Positions 2,098 to 6,011 of a stretch of DNA of 12,967 nt are shown here, one piece after another. Source of the DNA: an uncultured Lachnospiraceae bacterium (GTDB lineage: Bacteria; Bacillota; Clostridia; Lachnospirales; Lachnospiraceae). Each line of letters begins with the position of its first letter. Within the stretch, counting starts at the first letter, position 1. Position numbers and translations under genes: made by a program. The stretch spans positions 1 through 12,967 of the forward strand of contig CAJOQO010000137.1 in assembly GCA_905236545.1 (NCBI GenBank), given 5' to 3'. The notes under the pieces were generated by a model. That model did no database searches, was not told where the DNA came from, and saw nothing but the letters and a program-made list of their open reading frames with translations.

Positions 2098-3354
2098 ATG
2101 ATTGAGAACATACGTCTGGCATTTCAGGGAATCTGGTCACATAAGATGCGTTCTTTTCTGACGATGCTGGGAATCATTATCGGAATCGCTTCGATCATCG
2201 CGATCGTTTCCACGATACAGGGTACGAACAATGCCCTGAGAGATCAGCTGGTCGGATCAGGAAACAATACGGTCAACGTCAATCTGAGCCAGGGCGGTGA
2301 GATCTATCAGATCTATGATTCGTCCTCGATCCCGACAGGTATTCCTGTGATCTCGGATGATACGAGGCAGAGGATCCTTGCGCTGGATAACGTCGAGAAG
2401 ATGACCAGCTACACGACCCGGTTTGTTTCGGACGGCGTTTACTACCGGGATAAGTCCCTGAGTGAATTCAATATTTATGGCATCGATACGGACTACTTTG
2501 ATACGCTGGGATATTCGATCAAGACAGGCCGGGAATTCCTTCCGGAAGACTATGAAGACTTTCATCGTGTGATCGTCGTGGATCAGAAGGCGTCGGAGAA
2601 TCTTTTCCAGGGCGCCAGCCCGCTGGGACGTACGGTGGAGATCAACTCGCAGCCCTTCACGGTTGTGGGGGTCGTCTACAAGACCTCGACCTATGAGCCG
2701 AAGATCAATGATCTTGATGACTACTATACCAACAGTGACGGGTCGAACGGCATCTTTTTCATGCCGAAGTCGACCTGGCCGATCGTATTTCAGTACGATG
2801 AGCCGGAGAACGTAGTGATCAAAGCCACCAGCACGGACGAGATGACGAAAGCCGGCCAGCGAACGGCCAATATTCTCAATGAAGGGATTACAAACAAAAC
2901 CTCCACGGTTACCTACAGTGCCGAGGATCTTCTCGGCATCGTCAAGCAGCAGCAGGAGCTGGCGAACGCGTCCAACCTGCAGCTGGTCTGGATCGCGGGG
3001 ATCTCTCTTCTGGTCGGCGGTATCGGTGTCATGAATATCATGCTGGTATCCGTGACAGAGCGTACCAATGAGATCGGCCTGAAAAAGGCGATTGGCGCCA
3101 GAAAAGGAGCGATCCTGTGGCAGTTCCTTACAGAGGCGGCGGTTCTCACCAGCCTTGGGGGAACGCTCGGCGTGGCGGCGGGAATCGCCATGAGCCAGCT
3201 GATCCACCGGTTTACGGGGATCCTTGTAGGCATCAACTGGCCGGCGGCCCTGATCGCCGTGCTTTTCTCGATGGCGATCGGAATTGTATTCGGGCTGCTT
3301 CCCTCTGTGCAGGCTTCCAACCTGGATCCGATCGAAGCACTGCGAAGAGAGTAA
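2098..3354 (+). CDS. MacB/FtsX-type ABC transporter permease
   Basis: This is the membrane subunit of an ABC exporter of the MacB/FtsX type, 418 residues, a usual length for a permease without a fused ATPase. The N-terminus carries one membrane helix (about residues 20-40, TMLGIIIGIASIIAIVS). A large extracellular domain of about 250 residues (MacB periplasmic-core-like) follows. Three helices at about 296-318, 341-364 and 381-403 form the FtsX domain. The loop after the second helix carries the family motif TERTNEIGLKKAIGARK, and the C-terminus ends in the usual NLDPIEALRRE. A GAGAGG at 2081-2086 stands 11 bases before the ATG. The adaptor gene lies 55 bases upstream, so the two are very likely one operon. 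No ATPase gene lies between or after them; it is presumably upstream of the window. No terminator is visible before the rpsB promoter. Confidence 0.92.
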   Translation: MIENIRLAFQGIWSHKMRSFLTMLGIIIGIASIIAIVSTIQGTNNALRDQLVGSGNNTVNVNLSQGGEIYQIYDSSSIPTGIPVISDDTRQRILALDNVEKMTSYTTRFVSDGVYYRDKSLSEFNIYGIDTDYFDTLGYSIKTGREFLPEDYEDFHRVIVVDQKASENLFQGASPLGRTVEINSQPFTVVGVVYKTSTYEPKINDLDDYYTNSDGSNGIFFMPKSTWPIVFQYDEPENVVIKATSTDEMTKAGQRTANILNEGITNKTSTVTYSAEDLLGIVKQQQELANASNLQLVWIAGISLLVGGIGVMNIMLVSVTERTNEIGLKKAIGARKGAILWQFLTEAAVLTSLGGTLGVAAGIAMSQLIHRFTGILVGINWPAALIAVLFSMAIGIVFGLLPSVQASNLDPIEALRRE

Positions 3355-3373
3355 GAGGAAGAATAATCCATGC

Positions 3374-3402
3374 TTGAAACACACAGAAGTGCGTGATATA
3401 CT
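3374..3402 (+). promoter_or_regulatory. Sigma-A promoter of rpsB-tsf
   Basis: A TTGAAA -35 box (3374-3379) and a TATACT -10 box (3397-3402) are separated by exactly 17 bases. The start of transcription would be near 3409, giving an rpsB leader of about 98 bases. The boxes are one mismatch each from consensus, as expected for a highly expressed translation operon. Confidence 0.8.
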
Positions 3403-3423
3403 GTGAAAGTTGCTGAATAAACA

Positions 3424-3478
3424 CGCATGCGGATACTGCGGGCGGTGCCGGAAGGCTCCCGCGGAGAGGAAGCATGCG
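3424..3478 (+). promoter_or_regulatory. Structured 5' leader of rpsB
   Basis: The leader can fold into a closed element just before the ribosome binding site. CGCATGC (3424-3430) pairs with GCATGCG (3472-3478). Inside it GCGGG (3438-3442) pairs with CCCGC (3458-3462), topped by GCC-GGAA-GGC (3447-3456) with a GNRA-type loop. S2 autoregulates rpsB-tsf through the leader in E. coli; whether this clostridial leader does the same is inference. Confidence 0.45.
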
Positions 3479-3506
3479 GAAGTACAAAACCAGAAGGAGA
3501 ACTGAG

Positions 3507-4277
3507 ATGAGTGTACTTTCCATGAAACAGCTGCTGGAAGCAGGTGTCCACTTCGGACATCAGACCAGGAGATGGAACCCGAAGATGGCTCCGTATATCT
3601 ACACGGAGCGCAACGGAATCTATATCATCGACCTGCAGAAGACGGTCGGGATGATCGATGACGCGTACAACGTAATCGGTGACATCGCTGCGAACGGCGG
3701 CTCCATCCTGTTTGTCGGCACCAAGAAGCAGGCACAGGATTCCATCCGTCAGGAAGCGGAGCGCTGCGGCATGTACTATGTCAATGAAAGATGGCTCGGC
3801 GGTATGCTGACCAACTTCAAGACGATCCAGAGCCGCATCAAGAGACTGAAGGACATCAAGAAGATGCAGGCGGACGGAACCTTCACGGTACTGCCGAAGA
3901 AGGAAGTCATCAAGCTCGAAAAGGAACTTGAAAAGCTGGAGAAGAACCTCGGCGGCATCGAGGAGATGAAGAAGCTTCCGGATGCGATTTTCATCGTGGA
4001 TCTGAAGAAGGAGCACATCTGTGTGCAGGAAGCGCATGCGCTGGGCATTCCGCTGATCGGTATCGCTGATACCAACTGTGATCCGGAAGATCTGGACTAT
4101 GTGATCCCGGGCAATGACGACGCGATTCGTGCCGTAAGACTGATTGTCTCCAAGATGGCTGATGCTGTCATCGAGGCAAGGCAGGGCACCGAGGGTGCGG
4201 CCCCGATCGAGAATCAGGTCTTCACAGGAGAAGGTATTGACTACGCAGGCGAGGCGCAGGAGACTCCCGCTGAGTAA
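3507..4277 (+). CDS. rpsB: 30S ribosomal protein S2
   Basis: Ribosomal protein S2 of the small subunit, 256 residues. It opens with the conserved [20 protein letters not shown] and continues through [31 protein letters not shown], the coiled-coil segment rich in Lys and Glu, and [30 protein letters not shown] S2 core sequence. The start chosen is the ATG at 3507 (MSVLSMKQ), because AAGGAG at 3494-3499 lies 7 bases before it and bacterial S2 proteins begin this way. An in-frame ATG at 3474 would add 11 basic residues without a good ribosome binding site. tsf follows after 43 bases, the classic gene pair. Expression should come from the promoter at 3374-3402, possibly with control at the folded leader. 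Identification is secure. Confidence 0.98.
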
Positions 4278-5308: not shown

Positions 5309-5346
5309 AAAGCGGTGCGTCATTTGATGACGCACCGCTTTGTTTT
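5309..5346 (+). terminator. Bidirectional intrinsic terminator after tsf
   Basis: A perfect stem of about 15 base pairs (5309-5323 with 5327-5341, core AAAGCGGTGCGTCA) and a three-base loop is followed by TGTTTT on the plus strand. The A-rich 5' flank gives a T-rich tail on the minus strand too, so it can also end the convergent small gene that stops at 5363. Confidence 0.9.
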
Positions 5347-5362
5347 GATCTCTTCAGAAACC

Positions 5363-5665
5363 CTAATTCAGGAAGCCACTTTCTGCCCATCCCCAGACGC
5401 CATTGTAACAGACATAGGTGTAGGAGCAGGGAATCCCCTGCAGGCCGGTTCCGGAGACTGTTTCGCCATAAGTAAATACCTGATAGCCGGAATACAGACG
5501 CGCAAGCTCGTGATACTGATCCCATTGAGGAGACGGTCTCAGCGCGAGACAGGCTCCGTTGCAGTTTCCAACAGACATATAATAACCCTTTTCGCTGATT
5601 CCGCCGTTCGTGTTATGGAGCTCCTGTGCGTTCATAATCTGTTTGTTCTTAATTGTATCTGCCAT
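5363..5665 (-). CDS. Small secreted protein: double-glycine leader fused to an SH3b-like domain
   Basis: A 100-residue protein. The ATG at 5665 is chosen because AAAGGAG (5674-5680) lies 8 bases upstream; a TTG seven codons earlier would place the ribosome binding site inside the gene. Residues 1-22 end in MNAQELHNTNGG, which fits the double-glycine leader pattern cut by C39-peptidase ABC exporters: hydrophobic at -12, Glu-Leu at -8/-7, Gly-Gly at -2/-1. Residues 23-100 resemble a bacterial SH3 domain: CLALRPSPQW matches the usual start (LNVRSGPS-like), SGYQVFTYGE the middle strand, and CYNGVWGWAESGFLN the closing GW-x-x-S-x-L signature. Four cysteines (35, 39, 80, 86) could form two disulfides after export. 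The mature part would be about 78 residues. No exporter, immunity or modification gene is adjacent. The leader and gene are convincing; the SH3b call is from pattern and the function is unknown. Confidence 0.75.
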   Translation of the reverse strand: MADTIKNKQIMNAQELHNTNGGISEKGYYMSVGNCNGACLALRPSPQWDQYHELARLYSGYQVFTYGETVSGTGLQGIPCSYTYVCYNGVWGWAESGFLN

Positions 5666-5680
5666 GGAAGGTTCTCCTTT

Positions 5681-6011
5681 TTTCAACAGAACGGATCATT
5701 TTGTATCGCTGGATTCATCTGCTTCACCGGCTGATTATTCTCCGGTCTGTCTGTTCATACGATCCATTTCGAGGGCGGGCCAAAGAAAACAGGGCATCAT
5801 TTCCATGGCAACAGAGGAAGAAAATATGATAGACTAAGGAAACACGGATTCTGTCAGGAGCCTCCGGCGGATCGCAGTGCGGCGCAAAGGCAGGCTTTTG
5901 GCGGACAGGAAAAGAAGAGGAATGGGACATGCACCTGCACGATTGCAGAGGCAGCTGCCGGCCTGCGGGGCGGGGCCGTGAACGGCGGCGGGAAAAGGGA
6001 CTCAAAAGAAC
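5681..6011. other. Intergenic region between divergent genes
   Basis: About 330 bases between the small double-glycine gene (-) and the isomerase gene (+), where promoters of both must lie. A TATGAT at 5825-5830 could be a -10 box for the plus strand but has no good -35 box. No convincing promoter was found for the minus strand. Open frames here lack ribosome binding sites or protein-like composition. The right-hand half (about 5855-6000) is GC-rich and purine-rich without a clear stem-loop. Confidence 0.4.

Follow-up and report, generated by a model that had tools for sequence, protein, structure and literature searches.

The window, that is, the whole stretch of 12,967 nucleotides analysed here (uncultured Lachnospiraceae bacterium, assembly GCA_905236545.1, contig CAJOQO010000137.1), carries on its minus strand a gene that converges with tsf and encodes a 100-residue protein with a double-glycine leader and an SH3b-type cargo. 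The following features were recognised at this locus:

5363..5665, minus strand: gene of the 100-residue double-glycine-leader SH3b protein, stop codon included, with relatives found by phmmer and profile searches
5665-5663 and 5365-5363, minus strand: its ATG start codon and its stop codon, respectively
5600..5665, minus strand: leader, residues 1-22, with Met at -12, Glu at -8, Leu at -7 and Gly-Gly; predicted C39 cleavage after Gly22
5366..5599, minus strand: cargo, residues 23-100, an SH3b-type barrel according to the AF2 model, fold matches and Pfam SH3_3 on relatives
5674..5678, minus strand: Shine-Dalgarno AGGAG, read from the sequence
5757..5782, minus strand: predicted ECF-sigma promoter TGGCCC-N15-CGTAT, with CGTAT 96 bp from the ATG
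5309..5341, plus strand: hairpin terminator between the convergent tsf and the 100-residue gene (1 found, 0.9 expected in shuffles)

The first 22 residues, MADTIKNKQIMNAQELHNTNGG, include the C39 consensus residues Met11, Glu15, Leu16 and Gly21-Gly22, so that all the leader positions named in a preliminary description of this DNA are present, and the four cysteines it had counted lie at 35, 39, 80 and 86. Since relatives were found by both phmmer and profile searches, the frame is more than a chance opening. The stretch ahead of it reads AAAAGGAG, and a generic sigma-70 promoter scan found nothing. The terminator is assigned to tsf because its T run lies on the plus strand. The position of the SH3b gene beside tsf is lineage-specific, since no such gene occurs in the flanks, of about 1.5 kb or less, covered at 14 other tsf loci of the same genus (4 of the 19 genomes gave no tsf match). 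Elsewhere in the window, positions 1-415 hold tandem repeats with 36-bp and 45/15-bp units that code for a Pro/Thr-rich repetitive stretch, and the gene bearing them (3-2042) resembles an efflux adaptor, a name given by eye.

The preliminary description regarded the 78 residues behind the leader as an SH3b-like domain, and the structural evidence agrees with it. In the AF2 model of the window protein, strands follow one another in SH3 order between residues 28 and 95, and an SH3b barrel accounts with good confidence for most of residues 23-100; the pLDDT is below 50 at residues 1-15 and 17-24, and a helix at 13-16 lies inside the leader. The Foldseek matches obtained with this model support SH3b, and a sequence-only PDB search found nothing. 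It counts against this reading that the best Foldseek E-value is only 0.018 and that the window protein itself had no Pfam match at E<=10, PF08239 and the Nif11 leader domain included; 15 of 120 aligned family members matched PF08239 (bacterial SH3) at E<=0.01. A second type of double-glycine SH3 protein passed the PF08239 cut-off of 27 in three of four proteins tested (29.5, 35.0 and 36.4), the fourth, L137, scoring 19.5, below it.

With the window protein as query, phmmer found 6 relatives at 59-96% identity, and a profile built from 37 sequences found 324 at E<=1e-3; this profile includes the leader and so favours leader-bearing matches, and the conservation figures below rest on the best 120 of the 324. 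The alignment has 120 rows, the window protein plus 119 of these best 120 relatives, P0055 being left out as a multi-SH3 protein without a leader. Positions -2/-1 are GG in 114/120 rows and AG in the other 6, with Gly22 invariant; thus the conservation of Gly-Gly in homologs, on which the preliminary description had made its reading depend, is borne out. Position -12 is I, L, M or V in 119/120, position -8 is Glu or Asp in 112/120 and position -7 is Leu in 109/120. One copy of the gene in another genome of the genus (L123, in G001) has lost the GG. As for the cysteines, C35 and C80 occur together in 24/120 members, C80 without C35 in 6 and C35 without C80 in 1, a pattern only suggestive of a C35-C80 disulfide in the window protein.

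Members of this family, hereafter GG-SH3b, were present in 13 of 19 genomes of the same genus, with at least three copies in the window's own genome. Among 391 genomes sampled from the class, the own genome alone matched. Of 397 sampled from the taxonomic family, 13 had matches at E<=1e-5, several of which match only the SH3 part of frames of at least 300 codons. GG-SH3b is apparently an undescribed family of Lachnospiraceae and related Clostridia. Many of its record names start with RUG, which we take to denote rumen; its Lachnospiraceae hosts are uncultured. Most copies are dispersed single genes. Double-glycine peptides with other short cargo were also observed, one under the type A promoter described below (L213:1200-1382, minus strand) and one beside a GG-SH3b gene (L126:10653-10808, minus strand).

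A secreted antagonist, whose SH3b domain would bind the walls of competitors and block their growth as a non-lytic bacteriocin, could account for several of these features. Its leader is of the bacteriocin type, as indicated by a weak TIGR03949 match of the window protein (14.2 bits on the leader part only, against a curated cut-off of 21.5) and by matches of aligned members to PF10439 (32/120) and L_biotic_typeA (9/120) at E<=0.01, and genomes hold several diverged copies. Nevertheless, no catalytic or membrane-active segment was recognised, and at most of the loci examined a copy stands as a single gene apart from the others, although that in L042 stands in a peptide-type cluster. Because most copies are so dispersed, we rate antagonism lower and consider it unlikely; the composition of the regulon, treated below, also speaks against it. 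The reading that we prefer is a domain exported by way of its double-glycine leader and kept at the producer's own envelope.

Export would require a C39-domain transporter. The window has no match to an NHLM transporter, as expected from the earlier remark that none is nearby, and the search of the rest of the genome (2.41 Mb, 72.5% complete) yielded two C39 transporters, on contigs C195 and C8. The C195 transporter passes the NCBIfam cut-off for NHLM ABC1 and adjoins an ABC2 scoring just under its own. The preliminary reading, a double-glycine export of an SH3b domain by a transporter encoded elsewhere, is thus supported by leader, fold and genomic C39 transporters. Across the genus, above-cut-off NHLM ABC1 was found in 15 of 19 genomes, including all 13 with GG-SH3b; the family accordingly occurs in 13/15 genomes with this ABC1 vs 0/4 without it (Fisher test 0.004, uncorrected for genome relatedness). 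The four lacking it (G003, G004, G006 and G017) gave no GG-SH3b match in the profile search; with another profile, G006 did match, though only from model position 21 onwards and within a frame of 353 codons. The NHLM transporter occurs without GG-SH3b in G012 and G013. Of the genomes outside the genus, G153 and G298 encode a C39 transporter, and G028, 93% complete, carries two GG-SH3b genes with no C39 match.

Physical linkage is rare, an NHLM transporter standing beside a GG-SH3b gene in 3 of 48 neighbourhoods examined, many of which are short contigs. In L042, 80 bases separate ABC2 from the start codon of the GG-SH3b gene; in L044, the gene lies on the same strand as the NHLM ABC2, with a fused small-protein/sigma remnant between them; in L080, it is convergent with ABC2-ABC1-HlyD genes. 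L082 was rejected as an NHLM neighbourhood, its match being an ABC exporter without a C39 match. The L042 locus (L042:1-11450, SVKM01000069.1) is a dense cluster with NHLM ABC2, GG-SH3b and an ECF sigma gene; it also contains four precursors with related Nif11-like leaders, one of them with a sub-cut-off Nif11 match, a radical SAM/SPASM protein (2816-4207) and STAS-, PP2C- and HATPase-like genes, named by eye, that resemble a partner-switching module.

These data bear on whether the protein leaves the cell at all. It could be a cytoplasmic SH3-like protein whose N-terminus merely resembles a leader, given that export is predicted from sequence, that the L123 copy lacks the GG and that G028 has the family without a C39 match. 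Set against this are GG or AG in every one of the 120 aligned members, a hydrophobic -12 position in all but one, the abutment of a poorly predicted leader on a well-predicted domain and the association with the NHLM PCAT, and we regard a cytoplasmic protein as very improbable compared with an exported one.

A further line of evidence comes from the upstream regions. These were collected for 34 family genes, 30 of this genus plus L042, L044, L043 and L129, and when aligned on CGTAT they reveal a second block at fixed spacing. The type A promoter, TTAGCCCT followed by 14 bases and CGTAT, is present in 19/34 upstreams, and type B, GTGGAT followed by 14-15 bases and CGTAT, in 6/34. After removal of one of each near-identical pair (4) and of two truncated upstreams, 21 of 28 carry the promoter (16 type A, 5 type B), a count that is not independent since the motif was discovered in the very upstreams then counted; in 1000 draws of random stretches from the same loci, the mean was 0.64 promoters and the highest count 4. 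The type A pattern occurs in 0/34 upstreams when reversed and in 0/34 on the opposite strand. The window site is TGGCCCGCCCTCGAAATGGATCGTAT (5782-5757, minus strand), whose -35 element (TTGGCCCG) deviates from the consensus. With its fixed -35/-10 spacing, and being common to the sigma factor's own operon, the bipartite motif is predicted to be an ECF-sigma-like promoter. Fourteen further family genes outside the 34, mostly from G153 and G028 together with L047, L123 (the copy without GG) and L137, the last two belonging to this genus, gave one weak match; hence the promoter characterises this genus together with L042 and L044, and not the whole family. When NHLM loci other than L042, L044 and L080 were scanned, type A scores reached at most 8.7, where the matrix members score 19.4-33.5, and type B sites were absent, so the transporter itself is seemingly outside the regulon.

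A candidate for the factor that reads this promoter was found in L042, where an ECF sigma with Pfam Sigma70_r2 and r4 above cut-off lies downstream of a small protein gene, both behind the same promoter as the GG-SH3b genes. A sigma profile search of the genus separated two groups by score and gene arrangement: sigma A in G000, G001, G002, G008, G009, G011, G014 and G015, and sigma B in G001, G005, G010, G011, G012 and G018. The copy of the own genome, G000:C249, is a sigma A, and its operon carries the same promoter. The type A promoter occurs in 6/6 genomes with sigma A only and type B in 3/3 sigma-B-only genomes with an assessable family gene (Fisher test 0.012, genome relatedness uncorrected); in G001 and G011, which have both sigmas, the sigma A operon stands behind type A, and type B lies ahead of a small gene that diverges from sigma B. 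Because the sigma operons were not used for building the promoter matrix and lay outside the motif-discovery set, the promoter at the small protein-sigma operons is independent support. Sigma (E<=1e-30) was found in 12 of 19 genomes, GG-SH3b in 13 and both in 11 (Fisher test 0.0095, with no correction for genome relatedness). The exceptions, in genomes 72-77% complete, are G016 (type A promoter, no sigma match), G007 (family present, weak sigma match, promoter not assessable) and G012 (sigma present, family absent). In L161, L162 and L175 (G018, G005 and G012, respectively), a sigma gene begins no more than about 110 bases after NHLM ABC2.

The 19 genomes of the genus were also searched with the promoter alone (TTAGCC-N16/17-CGTAT). 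This gave 31 sites vs 34 in the backwards control, and as the total does not exceed the control, the enrichment lies in the position of the sites and not in their number. Thirty of the sites were read, and that in G009:C41 was placed upstream of the sigma operon by coordinates. Twenty-one precede genes of three kinds: double-glycine-leader genes (11, comprising 8 GG-SH3b, 2 of the second GG-SH3 type and the other peptide in L213), small protein-sigma operons (6) and Sec-type proteins (4, with signal peptides judged by eye). Seven of the remaining 10 are inside frames of at least 316 codons and look accidental. A looser search of the own genome gave 5 sites vs 15 in the control: one each at a paralogue, in the window and at a Sec-type protein (C217), and two within genes. 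The same promoter stands before secreted proteins of two Sec-type kinds (L214, L219, L227 and L228), and a Pfam scan of L214 and L228 gave no match. Judging from these sites, the window gene seems to belong to a sigma-controlled double-glycine exportome, which probably acts at the envelope. A regulon that joins Sec-type proteins to an ECF sigma suggests envelope upkeep, and this weighs against the antagonist considered above. The promoter common to the GG-SH3b genes and the sigma operon would also suit a signal, with the exported domain or a fragment of it conveying cell density and acting back on the sigma factor, and a role in cell-to-cell communication is, among others, known for double-glycine peptides in the available text of PMC7018657; yet a folded domain of 78 residues is large for a peptide signal, and we hold this to be highly unlikely.

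The small protein encoded before sigma A adds a possible link to export. It has 70 residues in the own genome, where its gene overlaps the sigma start by 13 bases, and its profile has 345 relatives. One such gene is the following:

L193:1759-1968, minus strand: small protein of the pseudo-leader family, with the PCAT leader core and AA in place of GG

The core reads L(-12)xxxE(-8)L(-7)xxV(-4)xAA, in exactly the spacing of the C39 consensus. Among the best 120 of the 345 relatives, L[ST] at -12/-11 together with Ala-Ala at -2/-1 is found in 120/120, E or D at -8 in 118/120, Leu at -7 in 111/120 and Val at -4 in 110/120. In L044 (2037-2417), a single frame joins the small protein to a C-terminal sigma region 4, as though the intervening part had been deleted. 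We infer that the 70-residue protein may serve as an anti-sigma, as a C39-domain decoy, or in both ways. A tentative and rather doubtful extension is that the export state controls the regulon, the protein being an uncleavable pseudo-leader, or an anti-sigma, that senses whether a PCAT is present or free. If true, the sigma would switch on double-glycine cargo only when export is possible, a PCAT counterpart of FlgM-type control, in which a sigma factor is coupled to secretion. The pseudo-leader protein beside the sigma makes this link between export and transcription testable.

From the computed leader, fold, family, shared promoter and co-variation with sigma, we hypothesize the following course of events, which as a whole we judge to be probable. 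An ECF-type promoter of its own would drive the window gene, the ECF sigma on C249 being the most likely factor to read it; the promoter and the sigma co-variation are the reason to think that this sigma binds ahead of, and switches on, the scattered double-glycine genes. The 22-residue leader would be recognised by the C39 peptidase domain of the NHLM-type PCAT on C195, possibly that on C8, and the precursor cut after Gly22 and exported as a lone SH3b domain of 78 residues. We infer this choice of transporter and the cleavage from the leader and the transporter co-occurrence. The mature domain would most likely remain on the envelope of the cell that makes it, as a surface protein that binds the wall, a location and a binding proposed from the fold alone. 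Together with other double-glycine proteins and a few Sec-type proteins, it would form the sigma-controlled exportome.

In endolysins and autolysins, SH3b domains form part of larger proteins, for which Sec is the usual export route. The window protein resembles these PF08239 wall-binding domains in fold and differs from them as a lone domain with a double-glycine leader; it shares its leader with class IIb/IIc double-glycine bacteriocins (TIGR03949, PF10439), from which its modelled, folded beta barrel sets it apart. The open-licence literature, as far as its text was available, holds no recognisable description of a double-glycine SH3b protein or of an ECF-controlled double-glycine regulon. 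As its key residues fit published recognition rules, the leader itself is ordinary, and the apparent novelty lies in the cargo. In PCAT1, the substrate leader forms a helix from -10 to -4 with contacts at -7 and -12, and the natural substrate CtA joins a 24-residue leader to a 66-residue cargo (PMC6959990); CtA is thus a double-glycine PCAT substrate like the window protein, although its cargo is not described as SH3b in the available text of that paper. LahT150, a C39 protease of Lachnospiraceae, is described as recognising L-12, E-8, L-7 and GG, GA or GS and as tolerating varied cargo (PMC6363468). The LahA precursors follow the same recognition rule as the window protein and differ from it, according to the same source, in their Nif11-type leaders, lanthipeptide cores and clustered genes; the 22-residue window leader has no Nif11 leader domain and so falls outside the Nif11/NHLP precursors.

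A close likeness, by description, is to MAM of Faecalibacterium duncaniae, a PCAT-linked double-glycine protein at the envelope that is larger than a bacteriocin and whose leader has Ile or Val at -12, Glu at -8 and Val at -4 (PMC12184118). Both are double-glycine-leader proteins of gut Clostridia tied to a PCAT. MAM is portrayed there as one abundant protein whose model is a hexamer within a lattice, whereas the window family has an SH3b cargo, several scattered copies and an ECF-type promoter. The export route is known from MAM, CtA and LahA; what seems to be new is the lone SH3b cargo, together with the sigma-controlled set. PCATs are known mainly for exporting short bacteriocins and signals; here their cargo seems to be folded wall-type domains of a multi-copy family with one co-regulating ECF sigma, and the promoter, being recognisable in the sequence, offers a direct route to double-glycine cargo missed by bacteriocin searches.
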